Made by a program: the position numbers and the translations under genes. The notes under the pieces were generated by a model that saw only the letters and a list, made by a program, of their open reading frames with translations, was not told the DNA's origin and did not search any database. From the NCBI GenBank assembly GCA_032622095.1, contig CP136061.1:54757762-54821761 (forward strand): a DNA stretch of 64,000 nucleotides, written 5' to 3'. Source of the stretch: Siphonodentalium dalli (lineage: Eukaryota > Mollusca > Scaphopoda > Gadilida > Siphonodentaliidae). Shown piece by piece: positions 1,984 to 59,955 of this stretch. Position 1 is the first letter of the stretch. Every line of letters starts with the position of its first letter.

Positions 1984-3873
1984 TACTGAGAGGAAATGCT
2001 TAATGTGTTAGTCCGATTCCTGAGATGAAATACTTGATTTGCGAGTCTGATTGCTGAGAGGAAATGCTTGATGTATGGGTCCGATTTCTGAGATGAAATG
2101 CTTGATTTGTGAGTCCGATTTCTGCGATGAAATGCTTGATGTGTGAGTGAGATTCCTGAGATGAAATGCTTGATGTGTGAGTGAGATTCCTGAGAGGGAA
2201 TGCTTGATGTGTGAGTCTGATTCCTGAGATGGAATGCTTGATGTGTGAGTCTGATTGATGCGATAAATGCTTGATGTGTGAGTCTGATTCCTGAGATGGA
2301 ATGCTTGATGTGTGAGTGAGATTCCTGAGATGGAATGCTTGATGTGTGAGTCTGATTCCTGAGATGGAATGCTTGACGTGTGAGTCCGATTCCTGAGATG
2401 GAATGCTTGATGTGTGAGTCTGATTCCTGAGATGGAATGCTTGATATGTGAGTCTGATTCCTGCGTTAAAATGCTTGATGTGCGAGTCTGATTCCTGCGA
2501 TGAAATGCTTGATGTGCGAGTCTGATTCCTGCGATGAAATGCTTGATGTGTGAGTCTGATTCCTGAGATGGAATGCTTGATGTGTGAGTGAGATTCCTGA
2601 GATGAAATGCTTGATGTGTGAGTCTGATTCCTGAGATGGAATGCTTGATGTGTGAGTCTGATTCCTGAGATGAAATGCTTGATGTGCGAGTCTGATTCCT
2701 GCGATGAAATGCTTGATGTGCGAGTCTGATTCCTGCGATGAAATGCTTGATGTGTGAGTGAGATTCCTGAGAGGAAATGCTTGATGTGTGAGTGAGATTC
2801 CTGAGATGAAATGCTTGATGTGTGAGTCTGATTCCTGAGATGAAATGCTTGATGTGCGAGTCTGATTCCTGCGATGAAATGCTTGATGTGCGAGTCTGAT
2901 TCCTGCGATGAAATGCTTGATGTGTGAGTGAGATTCCTGAGAGGAAATGCTTGATGTGTGAGTGAGATGCCTGAGAGGAAATGCTTGATGTGTGATTGAG
3001 ATTCCTGCGATGAAATGCTTCATGTGTGAGTGAGATTCCTGAGATGAAATGCTTGATGTATGAGTGAGATTCCTGAGAGGAAATGCTTGATGTGTGAGTC
3101 TGATTCCTGAGAGGAAATGCTTCATGTGTGAGTCTGATTCCTGAGATGGAATGCTTGATGTGTGAGTCTGATTCCTGCGATGAAATGCTTGATGTGTGAG
3201 TCTGATTCCTGAGAGAGAATGCTTGATGTGTGAGTCTGATTCCTGAGATGGAATGCTTGATGTGTGAGTGTGATTCCTGAGATGAAATGCTTGATGTGTG
3301 AGTCTGATTCCTGAGATGAAATGCTTGATGTGCGAGTCTGATTCCTGCGATGAAATGCTTGATGTGTGAGTCTGATTCCTGAGAGGGAATGCTTGATGTG
3401 TGAGTGAGATTCCTGAGAGAGAATGCTTGATGTGTGAGTCTGATTCCTGAGATGAAATACTTGATGTGTGAGTGAGATTCCTGAGAGAGAATGCTTGACG
3501 TGTGAGTCTGATTCCTGAGATGAAATGCTTGACGTGTGAGTCTGATTCCTGAGATGGAATGCTTGATGTGTGAGTGAGATTCCTGAGATGGAATGCTTGA
3601 TGTGTGAGTCCGATTGCTGAGATGGAATGCTTGATGTGTGAGTCTGATTCCTGCGATGAAATGCTTGATGTGTGAGTCTGATTCCTGCGATGAAATGCTT
3701 GATGTGTGAGTCTGATTCCTGCGATGAAATGCTTGACGTGTGAGTCTGATTCCTGCGATGAAATGCTTGATGTGTGAGTCTGATTCTTGAGATGGAATGC
3801 TTGATATGTGAGTCTGATTCCTGAGAGGAAATACTTGATTTGCGAGTCTGATTGCTGAGCGAAAATGCTTGAC
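1984..3873. repeat. 34-bp minisatellite, about 55 copies
   Basis: Head-to-tail units on the theme TGATTCCTGAGATGAAATGC followed by TTGATGTGTGAGTC. Variants at fixed sites (GAGATG/GCGATG/GAGAGG; GAGTCTGAT/GAGTGAGAT; TGTGTG/TGTGCG) form higher-order groups. The minus strand of the unit contains no stop triplet, so a 219-codon open frame with a 34-residue period runs from 3125 to 2466. I read that as a by-product of the repeat, not a gene. Confidence 0.95.
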
Positions 3874-16609: not shown

Positions 16610-17412
16610 ATGAATTTTACCCTGTGTCTCATCTATATGCCAGTCACTACTGCCAAGACAACCTTGATCCCTTTCATAGCCTTTGACCCCTTTTTGTTTT
16701 AATCTCAAGACAATTCAAGCATTCGGGACATTTCCAGAACACCGCTGACCTATTTATATTGATTGTCTGTACTTGTCGAGAGTTATATTGCTGCACCGTG
16801 ATAGATTGATAAATCTATTAAACCGTGGCTAATGATCTTCATCGGGCGGTCTCGTCTTTACGATATCTTGATGTCGATTGAAGCTTACGGAGATTAGTAG
16901 GCATTGGGTAAAACCTCTGCTGGCTGTCATCTGCTTGTCACGTCACTTTACTATCGATGCCCCAGGTCCAGCCAATCAGATAGAACTCATTGACACCTTT
17001 AATTGTCTCAATCATAGCCCTTTATGACGTTTAATAAGCCGGTTGTTCCCCAGTTCCGTCCCGGGATGTCTTTGCCACGCGTTTTATTACTCACATTTAT
17101 AGACGGCACCTGGCGGGACCACTAGCAGTGATATATTGCACCAAAGCAATCAGAGAGCTTAGCCTCGATATTCTGCAAAATCCCGGCGCTGTATATCCGT
17201 GTTCATGAAGTCATGGCAGCATAATTTCCACCAAGAATAATGAGTTTGTCCCGACATCATTCTTCTATCAGGATATAGGAAATATCTGCTTATTCCGTCA
17301 GAATGAACAGTAAGCCCATAACCGTGGTAACCAGGATTTTAACTCCGCCTGCCTTTCTTACCTGAGATTTGGATTTTATCTGTGTTCGGTTGTTTTTGGA
17401 TCTAACTGTATC
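16610..17412 (+). promoter_or_regulatory. Non-repetitive block upstream of candidate first exon 1
   Basis: About 800 bp free of the window's MITE and satellite families, rising in G+C. It includes CCAATCAGA (a CCAAT-box-like motif, 16973-16981) and TATGACGTTTAATAAG. Its position directly before an ATG exon with a good donor makes a promoter and 5' UTR plausible. No TATA box or start site can be fixed from sequence alone. Confidence 0.35.
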
Positions 17413-17469
17413 ATGGCGACTTTGCACAGATTTCTTAGTGTGGATATACCGAGCCAAAGCTTTGGAAAG
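17413..17469 (+). CDS. Candidate alternative first coding exon 1 of the synaptotagmin gene
   Basis: Nineteen codons from ATG to a GT donor (AAG|GTCAGA), ending in phase 0. The peptide fits the pattern MATLxRFLSVDIPxxxFGK. A second exon of the same length at 20243-20299 is 15/19 identical in protein, with several of the DNA differences silent (CTT/CTC, GTG/GTT, ATA/ATT, CCG/CCA). That is the signature of coding constraint, not of a copied repeat. The donor phase matches the acceptor of the C2A exon at 30643, the next confident coding exon on this strand. The peptide has no membrane segment, so an isoform starting here would lack the N-terminal anchor usual in synaptotagmin-7 unless it lies on an unseen exon. 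I do not recognise the peptide from a known family. It could instead be the first exon of a different, unrecognised gene. Confidence 0.5.
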
Positions 17470-17674
17470 GTCAGAATTATGTATTCATTGTAATAACCAA
17501 GAACGATCTCTACCAGGTAAAATCTGTTAGGTGTTTAAGATTTGGTAACACATTGTCATTTCAGCTGGAAACTCCATGTTGAAAATTTTTATGGTGCAGG
17601 AAAGATTGTGACAATTAAGGTTAATTTCACTGCAGATTCATTCCACTGCACATGAAAACCACTGACCCCTTGTA
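17470..17674. other. Intron start after candidate exon 1
   Basis: Begins with the GT donor at 17470. No further feature recognised. Confidence 0.35.
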
Positions 17675-17923
17675 TTAACCCTTTCTATACAAATACTCAT
17701 TGACGAGTAATTATCCTTTAGGAAATATTCAGACACTAAATTCAATAAATAACCATAGGTCGTTTGTTGAGCATTTCCCTCCAATAAATAGGATTCCTTC
17801 TGCACTTGTATTATCCATTGTCTGCTTATTGTTTTTAGAAAACCCATCCAGATGAATAATAGACCATTCCAATGTATACTTTATGACTGATTGGGAGAAT
17901 TCATTTAGTATAGAAAGGGTTAA
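17675..17923. mobile_element. TTAA-B MITE, full length
   Basis: 249 bp including TTAA at both ends: TTAACCCTTTCTATAC at the left and TTTAGTATAGAAAGGGTTAA at the right. Includes TTGTATTATCCATTGTCTGC and GAATAATAGACCATTCCAAT. The best reference copy of the family in the window. Confidence 0.88.
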
Positions 17924-18207
17924 ACAACTAACAAACATGCTCCGATACATGAGTCATGTTACTCTCCCTATGAGTGGATTGTAAATCTGCCCTTATTTGG
18001 AATCAAACCAGCTACACTTATACTGGATGGCTTATGATGGTCTATTAATTGTGACAAGCAATCACTGTTGGGGGGATATAATTTTAATGGGGTGCTTGTG
18101 GTCTTTTGAAATGAATCCGATGTAAACTGTCAACTAATCTAATTTAATCATTCCCAAACCAAAGGATGTGATTTCAAAATCAGAAAAAAATATATGTCCA
18201 CTCAAGA
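17924..18207. other. No recognisable feature
   Basis: Spacer, nothing recognised. Confidence 0.4.
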
Positions 18208-18209
18208 TA

Positions 18210-18422
18210 CAGTAATGCTCTAAATAATCGACTCCTTAACCACAGCAGAATTATGGGTAATTTTTTAGGATTTAGACGGAAATATGGCTTGTTGCCATTC
18301 AACAGAAAGCTCTCACCGAGAGCTTTCCGATGAATGGCAACAAGCCATATTTCCGACTAAATCCTGAAAAGTTACCCATAATTCTGCTGTGGTTAAGGAG
18401 TCGATTATTTAAGGCATTACTG
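18210..18422. mobile_element. TA-MITE, full length
   Basis: TA-CAGTAATGCTC to AAGGCATTACTG-TA, arms around CTCTCACCGAGAG. Shares the left-arm variants TTTTTTAGGATTTAGACGG and AACAGAAAGC-type changes with the copy at 12620, suggesting a close common source. Confidence 0.9.
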
Positions 18423-18458
18423 TACCAGCTGCATTAATTCAGTTGTGAACACAACCTC

Positions 18459-18597
18459 TTAACCCATTCATGATGGGAGCTGTGCTGGTGCAGCATTTAA
18501 GATCCTGTGCCAGTGCATTCTCTTATATATGTGGGAGCCTCGCATATATAAGAGAATGCACTAGCTTACAAATGCGAGGTCAAGTTACTGGCCTCGA
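18459..18597 (+). mobile_element. TTAA-A MITE, left part
   Basis: TTAACCCATTCATGATGGGA, then GCACTGG-type motifs and one complete TATATATG hairpin, ending after GCGAGGTCAAGTTACT. The right half is missing. Confidence 0.75.
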
Positions 18598-18792
18598 CGC
18601 AACCTGTTGGGGTCTTAGTTTTTCCTTCAACCTATCATGTGTTGATTCATTACAATCTCATCCCTCTCGTCCAATTGATTACAGACAGATTTTTGCCTCA
18701 TAAGCTGTTAGATACAATTATCTCAAACATCCAACCATGGCAAAAGATTCCTATAACCTAACGCTTCTTTGATAATAAAAAAATTGGATTAC
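18598..18792. other. No recognisable feature
   Basis: Spacer, nothing recognised. Confidence 0.4.
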
Positions 18793-18889
18793 ATGAGATC
18801 CCCAGAGGGTGAATTTAGTGATGCTAGCCCACTAGGCACCCTCTCGGGACCTCATTCTTAAAATGACAGTCACACTAAACTCAGGCTTG
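18793..18889. mobile_element. hAT-M MITE, shortened copy
   Basis: GATCCCCAGAGGGTGAATTT at the left, an inner deletion, then GACAGTCACACTAAACTCAG to GGCTTG. The outer left arm is missing. Confidence 0.7.
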
Positions 18890-19104
18890 ATTTTCACTAT
18901 TGTGATAAAGCAAATTTTTTGCAGGTATTGTAAGAAAATACTTTACAATTAGAACTGCAACAATTGTGACCGTTAGCATTTCAATTTCATTTGACTGAGA
19001 CTGCATGGTGTGCATTTCTGTATACATAAATGCATACCTTGCAGCTTGCACATTTTATGTATATTAGCATTATGACATCGACCCCATCAGCACCACTACT
19101 TTGG
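18890..19104. other. No recognisable feature
   Basis: Spacer, nothing recognised. Confidence 0.4.
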
Positions 19105-19171
19105 TTAACCCTTTGACTGGGTCATGTAAAGGTTAATGCTGCACCAGCACAGCTCCCGTCATGAAAGTGTT
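19105..19171. mobile_element. TTAA-A MITE, collapsed copy
   Basis: Only the two ends remain: TTAACCCTTTGACTGGGTCA and GCTGCACCAGCACAGCTCCC followed by GTCATGAAAGTG. The whole hairpin middle is gone. Confidence 0.6.
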
Positions 19172-20242
19172 TAAAAATTCAAATTTTCTAAAGTCAAATG
19201 GTACTGAAACATTTTCTCTGTTTCCAAGTCAACATACATCACTATGTTTTGAGAATATTGATTTAAACATGAAATATCTATCTTCTGATGTTACCTGTGC
19301 CTGTTTGACACTGGAGATTACATGTTGATAGGGATAACTTTAATACAGATACCCATATAATCTGTGACTCGGATTTCTAAGTTCGTAGCCCGGACACTTC
19401 TATTGACTTATTAGGCGTGAACCGAAGCCACCTCCTGCTTTCGCAAAGCTTCATTAGCTCCCTTGTTTGTAGTTTGCCATGAAACATTATACACCGTGTT
19501 GTGTGGCAATCATGGCTCAGACTCTATACAAAGATTCCTGTGAACTCACATGTTAATATCCGCTTTTATGGTGTTGCTGACATCGCTAAAGGAAAGATAA
19601 ATGAGATTTGTCTCGGGAGACTTGCTCACCAGGTCGCCACATTTGACACTGCCTTCTCAAACCTACGCTCCTCCACATGTTTCAGATCTGGTTCACTGCC
19701 TTGCTCTATTAATGCTGGTGTATATTCATTCATTTCGGATAGTGATTCAGTGTTGCATACTGCGTTACTGGTTTTGTAGCTCTTGACCAAGATCTGTTGC
19801 CATGGAAACTAATCTCGCTTAATATTTGGTCACTTCCAATACATTTTTACCTGTGATCTTACCTGTGATCGTGGATAGGGAATATTTGGCTGTTAAAAGT
19901 TGTTTTGTGGCAACTTTTAGAACATTTTATTTATGGTAATCTTAGAAAATTCACCGGATACTTTTATCATATTCATCGTTTCCATGGAATATATTTAACA
20001 TCTTGCTGCTGCTGAATTCACTGAAACTATGAAAAGGTTGCCATTGAATTTAAATAATGGTGTGCCTATAGAAACTCTGAGATTCGCCAGTTGTTAAGGA
20101 TATAGTGACCCTTTACTGTTTGCGTCATTCATGGCAACTTTGAAGACATTCATCAGTTGCCATGGATACTGGTTCGTTTGCTGAGTTCCTGGAAGGGAGT
20201 CACTTGTCTTGGATTAAAAGCATTTCTGTCTGCTAATCATTC
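19172..20242 (+). promoter_or_regulatory. Non-repetitive block upstream of candidate first exon 2
   Basis: About 1 kb without the window's repeat families, in the same relation to the second ATG exon as 16610-17412 is to the first. It holds a 92-codon + frame (19501-19779) with no family match that I can name, and at 20131 a decayed relative of the ATG exons. Promoter function is inferred only. Confidence 0.3.
20131..20187 (+). pseudogene. Possible decayed third copy of the short first exon
   Basis: CATTCATGGCAACTTTGAAG matches the start context of the exon at 20243 (CATTCATGGCGACTTTGACA) over about 17 of 20 bases, 112 bp upstream. After four codons (MATL) the frame diverges from the paired exons and no donor in the right place is seen. 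A relic or a coincidence. Confidence 0.25.
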
Positions 20243-20299
20243 ATGGCGACTTTGACAAGATTTCTCAGTGTTGATATTCCACATAAAGGCTTTGGAAAG
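20243..20299 (+). CDS. Candidate alternative first coding exon 2 of the synaptotagmin gene
   Basis: ATG followed by 18 codons to AAG|GTCAGC, phase 0, exactly the same length as the exon at 17413. The peptide again fits MATLxRFLSVDIPxxxFGK; only the residues at x differ. Both exons conserve FGK and the GGTCAG donor. Like exon 1, it is compatible in strand and phase with the acceptor at 30643. A Helitron-like 5' end begins only 12 bp into the following intron. Two start exons about 2.8 kb apart imply alternative promoters if real. The main doubt is whether they belong to this gene. Confidence 0.5.
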
Positions 20300-20311
20300 G
20301 TCAGCTGTAAT

Positions 20312-20420
20312 CTATATATAAAACCAGATGTCCGTCTGTCTGTAACCCTGTCACGCTTTCCCACCTTTATGAAATTTCAATCATAAATCCAAGTTATCGC
20401 AAATTTGGACCATTCCTGCC
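20312..20420 (+). mobile_element. Helitron-like 5' end fragment
   Basis: TCTATATATAAAACCAGATG followed by TCCGTCTGTCTGTAACCCTG, the usual 5' start of the Helitron-like elements here (compare 41282). No hairpin/CTAG end follows, so it is truncated. Confidence 0.5.
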
Positions 20421-24182: not shown

Positions 24183-25845
24183 CAAAGGCGTAGTGGTTAA
24201 AAATATATTGGTACGGCCATGTAATTATTGACCGCACTGACATCGAAGCGCCGAGATGCTATATATGGGGGGATGGTTTGGAAGAGGGGTATCCCCCCTT
24301 CCCAAAATGAGAAAAAAAAATGTATTCTTGCATTGAAATGTAGCGATTCTGTGCAACCGAGAGCGATTTTAACCGACATCCATTCACTTTGACAATTCGC
24401 GTGTACGATGAGAGTGCTTAGGCCTACTTTTATACTTTTTACTATCCAACGGATACAGATCACCAGCTGCTCTTTATTGGAGAGGTCTGTAGTCTCGTCG
24501 GCGAGAATTCCATACATATCAGTGGCTTTTATTGCAATAGCTATATCTCTGACTATGGTATTCCCGAATATTTTTATAATCTCGTTCTGAATTTGTGGGC
24601 AAACAAAGAGGTCTTTTTTTTATTCAACCATGCAAGAAATTGTGGGTCATCTTCTGCCCGGAGTTGGCAAAGCTGCATGAAATTCGACCTAGAATCTTCA
24701 TGACCACGAAACGCCAAGCCCTGCTTACAAAGAAACTTTATGCAGGACATTATTTTGATTAGACATTTTCTGTTCAAGGCCTTCTCCTCATAATGGGCTA
24801 CAGACAATTCTTCACCGATATCAGATGTTCCTGGCATAATACGCTGAACCGCTTCTTTATGATAATCTGACAATTCATGGGCGTTAAAACCTTGGCGGGA
24901 CCGACATGCTTCTTTCCAATTTACGAACCCTCGTGTTATGAATGTTGGCTCAACTTTACGCGACGATAGTTTCTTCTCTCGGTAGGCTTGTATGCAAATT
25001 CCACAATATGCAGCATCAGATGTTTCATTATAGTGTATCCACGGCCTGGTTATTGCCATTTGCCAGGGTAAGTTCTATTTCGGCAATGTCAACCGCATAA
25101 ATACGACTTTGGGTTTCGGTAGACATATACTACTAGTAGAATTTTCATGTTCACTGAACAAGGGTCTAATGGATTCATAATGAGTCTCACTCACTGTGGC
25201 CGTACTCTCAGCTTCATCGCCAGTATTGGCAGTTTCGGGTAGCATTTGTTCATGTTCGACAGAATGGACACCAGGCATAACTTGATCTTGTCCTGTGTTT
25301 TCATTAGCTGTGCTAATAGTAACATTTGATTTGAAATAATTTGACATAATTGATCATTTGATGGTGACAACTGAAAGTCATGAAGCCTGGAGCAGGGATA
25401 TATAGTCAGACTATAGTAACACTATGGCCGAACTAACATTGAACCCACCCTGGGCATCGTAGCTTTCAGCAATTACCATTTCAAATAACGCGCGACAAAA
25501 ACATTCGGTTATGCCCCTTTGATCGCGCAGTACATATCTCGTGAATGCATTGTTCGACGTCGGAATGTAATCGATTGACGTATATACGCTATACAACGTA
25601 ACCGATATACGGCAACGTTTCTTTATAAACCAAATGAACTCGAGGCATAATACGACGTAAACAAAAACTGGGTTACCTATATATAGATGGTTAAATGTGT
25701 GACTGAATCACATTGTAATACGTTGTGCGTCATTTACCAAGTGTTTGGAGAACGTGGCCGCTAATATTTGCCTATTCAGTATTATTTTTTGGTGAAATAT
25801 TGGTACGGCCAAAACCGTCCGGCCGTACCTACAACTACGCCCTTG
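24183..25845 (-). mobile_element. hAT element with perfect 8-bp target duplication
   Basis: 1,663 bp. ATGACAGG at 24175-24182 and 25846-25853. Ends CAAAGGCGTAGTGGT and, inverted, CAAGGGCGTAGTTGT; ATTGGTACGGCC recurs just inside both ends. It holds a truncated, broken transposase gene on the minus strand and lacks the catalytic and dimerisation part, so it cannot move by itself. Confidence 0.9.
24197..25347 (-). pseudogene. Truncated hAT transposase with TTF-type zinc finger (ZMYM1/DUF4371-like)
   Basis: Reads from ATG at 25347. The first 90 codons are an acidic, low-complexity leader ending in PKPKVVF. After an in-frame TAG (about 25075) the same frame continues as a TTF/MYM-like finger: WIHYNETSDAAYCGIC, then GFVNWKEACRSRQGFNAHE and LSDYHKEAV, giving a C-x2-C pair and an H-x5-H pair. 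Then comes the LAFRGHEDSRSNFMQL segment typical of these hAT proteins. A frameshift near 24583 moves to the frame with GILADETTDLSNKEQL, the start of the RNase H-like core. Past that the sequence is unrelated. One stop, one frameshift and a missing C-terminus make it dead. Family assignment rests on recognised motifs. Confidence 0.85.
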
Positions 25846-30642: not shown

Positions 30643-31033
30643 CTGTTGGGTGCCATCGGCAAAACACAGTCCATGCCGGAGGACTCGAGCGTGTGGAGTG
30701 GGGTGCGTAGCATCGCAAATAAATTCTGGGACGACGAACCTGAGGAAGCGGCCGCATCAGCAAACGCGAAAGCTCAGCAAGCGATGGACGACACGGCGGA
30801 AGGAATTGACTACAAACTGGGACGGATTCAATTCAGTGTTGGTTATGATTTCGCCACGATGACCTTGACATTGAAAGTATTCCGGGCATCAGGTTTACCC
30901 GCTAAGGACCTTTCAGGCACAAGTGATCCTTATGTTAAAATTATGTTGTTACCTGACAAAAAGCACAAACTGTTGACAAAAGTTAAGAAAAAGAATTTAA
31001 ACCCACACTGGAATGAGTGCTTTCTATTTGAAG
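30643..31033 (+). CDS. syt7: Synaptotagmin-7-like exon: linker and first half of C2A
   Basis: Acceptor TTTCTTTCACAG|CTG (30641-30642), phase 0. Donor GAAG|GTAAGA at 31034, phase 1: 130 codons plus one base. About 58 residues of linker, rich in Ala and acidic residues, lead into the C2A start [12 protein letters not shown], then [32 protein letters not shown] and [13 protein letters not shown]. The wording is closest to vertebrate synaptotagmin-7 C2A. The two loop-1 calcium ligands (Asp in AKD and in SDPY) and the KKKN basic patch are present. The product is a calcium sensor that binds membranes and promotes vesicle, granule or lysosome fusion. No ATG lies suitably at the front, so the protein starts on an upstream exon. 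The gene symbol is by similarity. Confidence 0.94.
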
Positions 31034-59492: not shown

Positions 59493-59703
59493 CAATAATG
59501 CTCTAAATAATTTGCTCCTTAACCACAGCAGAATTATGGGTAACTTTTCAGGATTTAGTCAGAAATATGGCTTGTTGCCATTCATCGGAAAGATCTCACA
59601 GAGCTTTCCGATGAATGGCAACAAGCCATATTTCCGACTAAATCCTGAAAAGTTACCCATAATTCTGCTGTGGTTAAGGAGTCGATTATTTTGAGTATTA
59701 CTG
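59493..59703. mobile_element. TA-MITE just before the C2A exon
   Basis: TA-CAATAATGCTC to GAGTATTACTG-TA, arms around AGATCTCACAGAGCTT. Its right end is 82 bp before the exon, close to where branch point and polypyrimidine tract lie. Confidence 0.88.
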
Positions 59704-59785: not shown

Positions 59786-59955
59786 GTTGGCCACACAACA
59801 AATTATTAGAAAAAACCTTATATCTCCAAGTGATCGACTATGACAGATTCAGTCGGGATGACCCGATGGGAGAGACCTATATCCCTCTTAATGAAATCGA
59901 CTTGTCACACAACCCGACCACATGGAAATATCTACAGCCTTGTAAGGATTCCAGG
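59786..59955 (+). CDS. syt7: Synaptotagmin-7-like exon: second half of C2A
   Basis: Acceptor TTGTTCTTCTTTTCAG|G (AG at 59784-59785), phase 1; donor AGG|GTGAGT at 59956, phase 0; 170 bp giving 57 codons with the base carried from 31033. The peptide includes LYLQVIDYDRFSRDDPMGE, TYIPLNEIDLS and TTWKYLQPCKDSR, the end of C2A. The three loop-3 calcium ligands (D-Y-D and the later Asp in SRDD) are kept, so with the first exon all five expected acidic ligands are present and the domain should bind calcium. The next exon should begin C2B; none is seen by 64000. Repeats crowd it on both sides (82 bp before, 33 bp after). Confidence 0.95.

Follow-up and report, generated by a model that had tools for sequence, protein, structure and literature searches.

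Exons 1A (17413–17469) and 1B (20243–20299), on the plus strand of the 64,000-nucleotide window (the whole stretch of DNA that was analysed), are best read as the products of an old tandem duplication of the first coding exon in a synaptotagmin-7 (Syt7) gene, each with its own promoter, each spliced to exon 2 and neither supplying a membrane anchor, a reading to which we give a probability of about 0.7. The ancestral first coding exon of Syt7 would have been duplicated in tandem long ago, and each twin would now have a separate promoter and be joined by splicing to the common exon 2. Both starts would then lead to the same 345-residue Ca2+ sensor, with two C2 domains and a leader of 19 residues but without a membrane anchor. 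The choice of promoter would mainly set where and when the unanchored Syt7 is made, the protein itself differing only at residues 5 and 14–16. We infer the splicing to exon 2, the status of 1A as a first exon, the separate promoters, the cytosolic location and the function from the features described below.

Similarity and constraint of the twin exons

Both exons begin with ATG, are 57 bp long and end in a phase-0 donor (1A, MATLHRFLSVDIPSQSFGK, donor AAG/GTCAGA; 1B, MATLTRFLSVDIPHKGFGK, donor AAG/GTCAGC), with starts 2,830 bp apart. Of the 19 residues 15 are identical, and of the 57 bases 45. Silent differences are found in four codons (8, 10, 12 and 13) and residue changes in four others (5, 14, 15 and 16). 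The earlier note had described the twin ATG exons in just these terms (57 bp, 2.8 kb apart, 15/19 residues, AAG/GTCAG in phase 0, silent differences), and that description was borne out; its statement that the leaders differ only in the tail was not, as residue 5 differs as well.

The best local alignment between the 2-kb surroundings of 1A and 1B consists of a single block of about 66 columns, running from two bases before the ATG (TC-ATG) to the fifth base of the intron (GTCAG). It scored 74, compared with a maximum of 38 in 300 dinucleotide shuffles in which both sides were shuffled. Outside the block, 19 of 20 steps of 20 bp showed 10–35% identity when compared without gaps, and the step adjoining the ATG showed 50%. 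By this comparison the flanks of the twin exons are unrelated, and the similarity is confined to the ATG exon and its donor. With flanks unrelated and bases diverged, the pair does not stem from a recent duplication or from an unmerged haplotype. An assembly error in which two haplotypes were kept can yield tandem near-copies, but allelic copies would align in their flanks and these exons match at only 45 of 57 bases; the likelihood of such an error is negligible.

A search of the whole genome (2.2 Gb) with the 1A peptide returned two places, both of which are the twins. The 773 bp before exon 1A (16640–17412) matched only itself, and a 1,141-bp piece spanning the upstream block and exon 1B (19180–20320) matched itself and exon 1A over 64 bp; in these searches with the 1A peptide and the upstream blocks, a missing match is no proof of absence. 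A search of genome contigs gave 23 stretches with the pattern and no relative.

Selection on the leader was assessed by comparing the two copies. The Nei–Gojobori method gave dS = 0.74 and dN = 0.17 (ratio 0.23; 11.7 silent and 42.3 other sites), in a pairwise test that has few silent sites (about 11) and cannot tell which copy, or whether both, has been selected. In a simulation, 12 random changes were put into the 54 bases that follow the ATG. A stop-free frame with at most four residue changes resulted in 0.22% of 100,000 trials (P about 0.002), and 30% of the trials held a stop. Along with the preservation of ATG and donor, the bias toward silent change indicates selection on the leader peptide, albeit from a small sample of sites. 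One feature of the twins counts against the main reading: the base at donor position +3 is C, which makes a weaker site by consensus. In the gene model to which the twins are assigned, exon 4 likewise has a GTCAG donor.

Initiation, candidate promoters and a third copy

An in-frame TAA at 20234 precedes the ATG of exon 1B by two codons (six bases), with no AG lying between. The exon therefore cannot be entered from upstream in the leader frame and must initiate. When 1A was spliced in silico into an exon containing 1B, a stop was found in frame for 7 of 7 AGs (20100 to 20242). From these two observations, A and B are alternatives. Mutually exclusive internal exons would both be entered in frame via a splice acceptor, which the stop and the lack of an AG exclude for 1B. 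No such restriction applies to exon 1A: upstream of its ATG the frame stays open as far as 17314 and AGs are present at 17313, 17333 and 17365, and thus 1A may be internal in a longer form. The first codon at which the twins match is their common ATG, which speaks against internal use of 1A. In sequence and phase the pair has the properties of alternative first exons that arose by duplication, with initiation forced for B only.

A single promoter upstream of A might also serve both exons, the choice being made by splicing, as is proposed for the downstream cassettes of chelicerate sDscam in passages of PMC4835542. The exons lie within 3 kb of each other, and AGs are available both upstream of A, as listed above, and upstream of B (20184, 20194, 20198 and 20219). 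Nevertheless, a transcript running from A into B stops in the A frame for every one of the AGs tried. Exon A would thus have to be wholly skipped and an untranslated exon placed before B, and we consider this arrangement highly unlikely.

The separate promoters of the preferred reading were sought in the sequence before each exon. The earlier note had placed each twin behind a block poor in repeats. Comparison of 204 kb with itself confirmed that these blocks are real (16619–17410, putative promoter A; 19183–20240, putative promoter B), but they are not special. The 204 kb holds 48 such repeat-free runs of at least 700 bp, and the blocks are therefore no mark of promoters. The CpG observed/expected ratio in the last 600 bp is 0.91 for A and 0.46 for B, which places them in the 85th and 32nd percentiles of all 600-bp windows and in the 75th and 17th percentiles of the 517 unique windows. 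CpG content was dropped as a promoter mark because it was not decisive. Seven 9-mers are common to both upstream blocks, and no promoter signature separable from background was found in the two blocks, which counts against the main reading. A bacterial promoter scan is not meaningful for animal DNA.

Five RFX-like dyads are present upstream of 1B, at 19220–20169, each within four mismatches of GTTGCCATGGCAAC, which we take to be a form of the RFX X-box. The 204 kb contains 49 such sites, and the next densest kilobase holds two. The 14-mer GTTGCCATGGAAAC at 19796–19809 of the window, presumably an X-box-like dyad for RFX, has 2,356 copies in the genome compared with 11 for the reversed control, an excess of about 200-fold. 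Ten loci carrying GTTGCCATGGAAAC were compared, five of them picked for close motif pairs or triplets, and 9 of the 10 have longer sequence in common with another of the ten. The nine form three repeat groups with no long matches between groups and little in common beyond the core. Sharing is weak at one of the GTTGCCATGGAAAC loci (L025; about 120 bp at 71%), and at another only 18–20 bp are common (L027). Block B itself showed no long match to the ten loci (best 28 bp, E = 0.007). As the motif is carried by repeats dispersed genome-wide, the cluster was not used as evidence and the idea of an RFX promoter was rejected; the cluster upstream of 1B may be old repeat DNA.

Block B also contains a third copy of the exon, which is new here. 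A search of both strands of the 204 kb with the first 33 bases of 1B and its leader gave as best other match positions 20125–20157 on the plus strand, starting 118 bp ahead of the 1B ATG and corresponding to the 5' half of the exon. It agrees with 1B at 27 of 33 bases; exon 1A agrees at 26, and the next best place at 21. Across the whole genome, the 19-mer TCATTCATGGCRACTTTGA has an exact match only in this copy and in 1B, and four other places carry it with one mismatch. The 3' half is not recognisable (33/66 over the whole exon, equal to background). An ATG at 20131 opens a frame of 17 codons that is closed by a TGA ending at 20184. Judged by these matches, 20125–20157 is a decayed or partial duplicate of the twin exon, and it would form an upstream frame if transcription begins 5' of it.

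The third copy has neither a full frame nor a donor, which suggests that copies die out at this locus. One twin alone might then be in use, with the other a relic on its way to the state of the copy at 20125; the pairwise test is blind to which copy is constrained, and one of the two could have died recently. However, both twins keep ATG, frame and donor despite their diverged flanks, and the changes between them are biased to silent ones. We regard a relic as distinctly unlikely.

The synaptotagmin-7 gene model and the membrane anchor

Exon 2 (30643–31033, plus strand) has a pyrimidine-rich acceptor in phase 0, matching the twins, and encodes a linker and the beginning of C2A, ending in phase 1. 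The remainder of C2A is encoded by exon 3 (59786–59955, plus strand). Exon 4 (C2B) and exon 5 (C2B and the stop) lie beyond the window, at 54831790–54831904 and 54871791–54872095 of the contig (G000:C1). Joined to exons 2–5, either leader gives in frame a predicted five-exon, 345-residue C2A–C2B protein. Its best match among solved structures was Syt7 (6ank; 398.9 bits, 168 of 268 residues of the chain identical), compared with 294.8 bits for Syt1 and 225 for Syt3. Identification of the gene as Syt7 is supported by these C2 domains, in keeping with the synaptotagmin named in the earlier note. The exon that had been placed at 59786 belongs to the gene, with its span corrected to that given above. 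As for the proposal that the twins are alternative first exons of Syt7, it holds in that both fit exon 2 in phase 0, B must initiate, and leader and linker are without a transmembrane (TM) stretch; beyond this it is retained as the probable reading. One stretch in a viral contig collection was reported to encode a relative of Syt7 exon 2 and is possibly host DNA.

Compared with 6ank, the acidic positions of C2A are all kept in the two loops compared. The last acidic position of C2B, in exon 5, is occupied by Glu (RNEL) instead of the Asp (RNDV) of 6ank. On our assumption as to which acidic C2 residues bind Ca2+, the Glu may alter the calcium affinity of C2B.

As the link of the twins to exon 2 rests on sequence, they might instead start a transcript other than Syt7, such as that of a short gene in the 20.3–30.6 kb interval or at another place. 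This is very improbable. The acceptor of exon 2 is pyrimidine-rich and in matching phase, and no other start exon was found for it. Inspection by eye of the 26 plus-strand ORFs of at least 50 residues between 20300 and 30642 revealed no other gene, short exons being missable in such a scan, and leader plus linker matched no Pfam family above its cutoff.

Within the Syt7 model, no anchor is evident from the residues of either leader form, as leader plus linker contain no strongly hydrophobic stretch, no cysteine and no glycine-2. The maximum hydropathy over 19 residues is 0.84 with 1A and 0.71 with 1B. Neither form has the N-terminal TM domain of a classical anchored synaptotagmin.

Vertebrate Syt7 genes encode a TM-anchored form, and an anchor exon was also sought nearby. 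With the N-terminus of mouse Syt7 as a tblastn query, the best hits were a repeat-like one in the 204 kb (E = 0.28), one outside the hydrophobic part in a further 100 kb upstream (E = 0.19), and, in the whole genome, one 36 Mb away (E = 0.678). The most suggestive match to the anchor query lies between the twins, at 18836–18943; it is weak (E = 0.72 for the 204 kb) and has a hydrophobic part with CRYCKK after it. The first half of this match consists of repeat DNA, and no GT after the hydrophobic part is in phase 0, the phases being 2 and 1. It was not counted as an anchor exon for these reasons, although it may be one. A scan for an ATG, a hydrophobic stretch and a donor, from 70 kb upstream of the window to exon 2, gave no candidate at the strict setting and six at a looser one, of which one was in phase 0. 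The loosest scan, started 170 kb upstream, gave seven in phase 0. None of the candidates from these scans resembled a Syt anchor by eye. As a control, mouse Syt1 was used as the query and detected a Syt1-like anchor exon (E = 8.3e-11); synaptotagmin C2 exons lie on that strand at a distance of about 10 kb. The method is thus able to detect anchor exons. A divergent Syt7 anchor exon may still be present, as Syt7 anchors may be less conserved. Conceivably the anchor exon has been wholly lost, leaving only a soluble Ca2+ sensor and replacing the choice between anchored and unanchored forms by a choice between two promoters with near-identical products, although we think this unlikely.

Known systems and other features of the window

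The earlier note regarded an unanchored Syt7 as unusual. This was overstated, as passages of Craxton 2010 (PMC2823689) give evidence for Drosophila Syt7 variants without a TM domain. There, TM-less Syt variants are described as usual in the repertoires of many animals and for many Syt genes, and most invertebrate Syt13 genes as having two alternative N-terminal exons, one of them TM. The Drosophila Syt7 variants resemble the forms predicted here in having no membrane anchor, whereas the same passages are silent on two homologous anchor-less first exons. According to passages of PMC7224696, exon 1 of the Drosophila gene is TM-coding and a single SYT7 band was seen with a C-terminal tag. This result counts against abundant unanchored Syt7 in Drosophila, and the variants may be minor.

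The choice of a first coding exon is shared with a known synaptotagmin, but there the exons differ in anchoring, while the present pair consists of near-copies that both lack a TM stretch. Passages of PMC3228551 describe initial exons as most probably chosen via different promoters and cite Drosophila silver as having two homologous ones. Those tandem exons are likewise similar in length, frame and sequence. Silver is, however, a different gene, and the copies described here comprise just 19 codons and are accompanied by a damaged third copy. The 5' units of chelicerate sDscam and vertebrate Pcdh, as presented in passages of PMC4835542, are also arrayed in tandem and joined to shared exons, generally with a promoter before each. 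Those cassettes diversify domains of surface proteins, whereas here the protein would be nearly unchanged.

No literature on paired or alternative first exons in Syt7 was found in our search, which is a weak negative, and four peptide strings gave no literature match. Both an unanchored Syt7 and the use of homologous first exons from multiple promoters are already known, and the present Syt7 pair appears to be a new example. In passages of PMC8452306, mouse SYT7 needs palmitoylation for its stability and localisation, and gamma-secretase cuts within the TM domain. If the main reading is true, a Syt7 with no anchor, cysteine or glycine-2 would be a natural test of a free cytosolic C2 pair, and the near-identical leaders would show that promoter choice can be maintained with hardly any change in the protein.

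Several repeat features were observed in the window. MITE-like foldback repeats with near-perfect inverted arms, as judged by eye, are located at 18220–18415 and 59500–59690, and similar pieces occur elsewhere in the window. Broken frames on the minus strand at 24200–25074 may be a transposase remnant; they matched DUF4371 with E = 1.7e-7, just below its cutoff, and gave a weak zinc-finger match. A minisatellite with a 34 bp unit and 55.5 copies occupies 1986–3872 and contains long open frames on the minus strand, of up to 632 codons.
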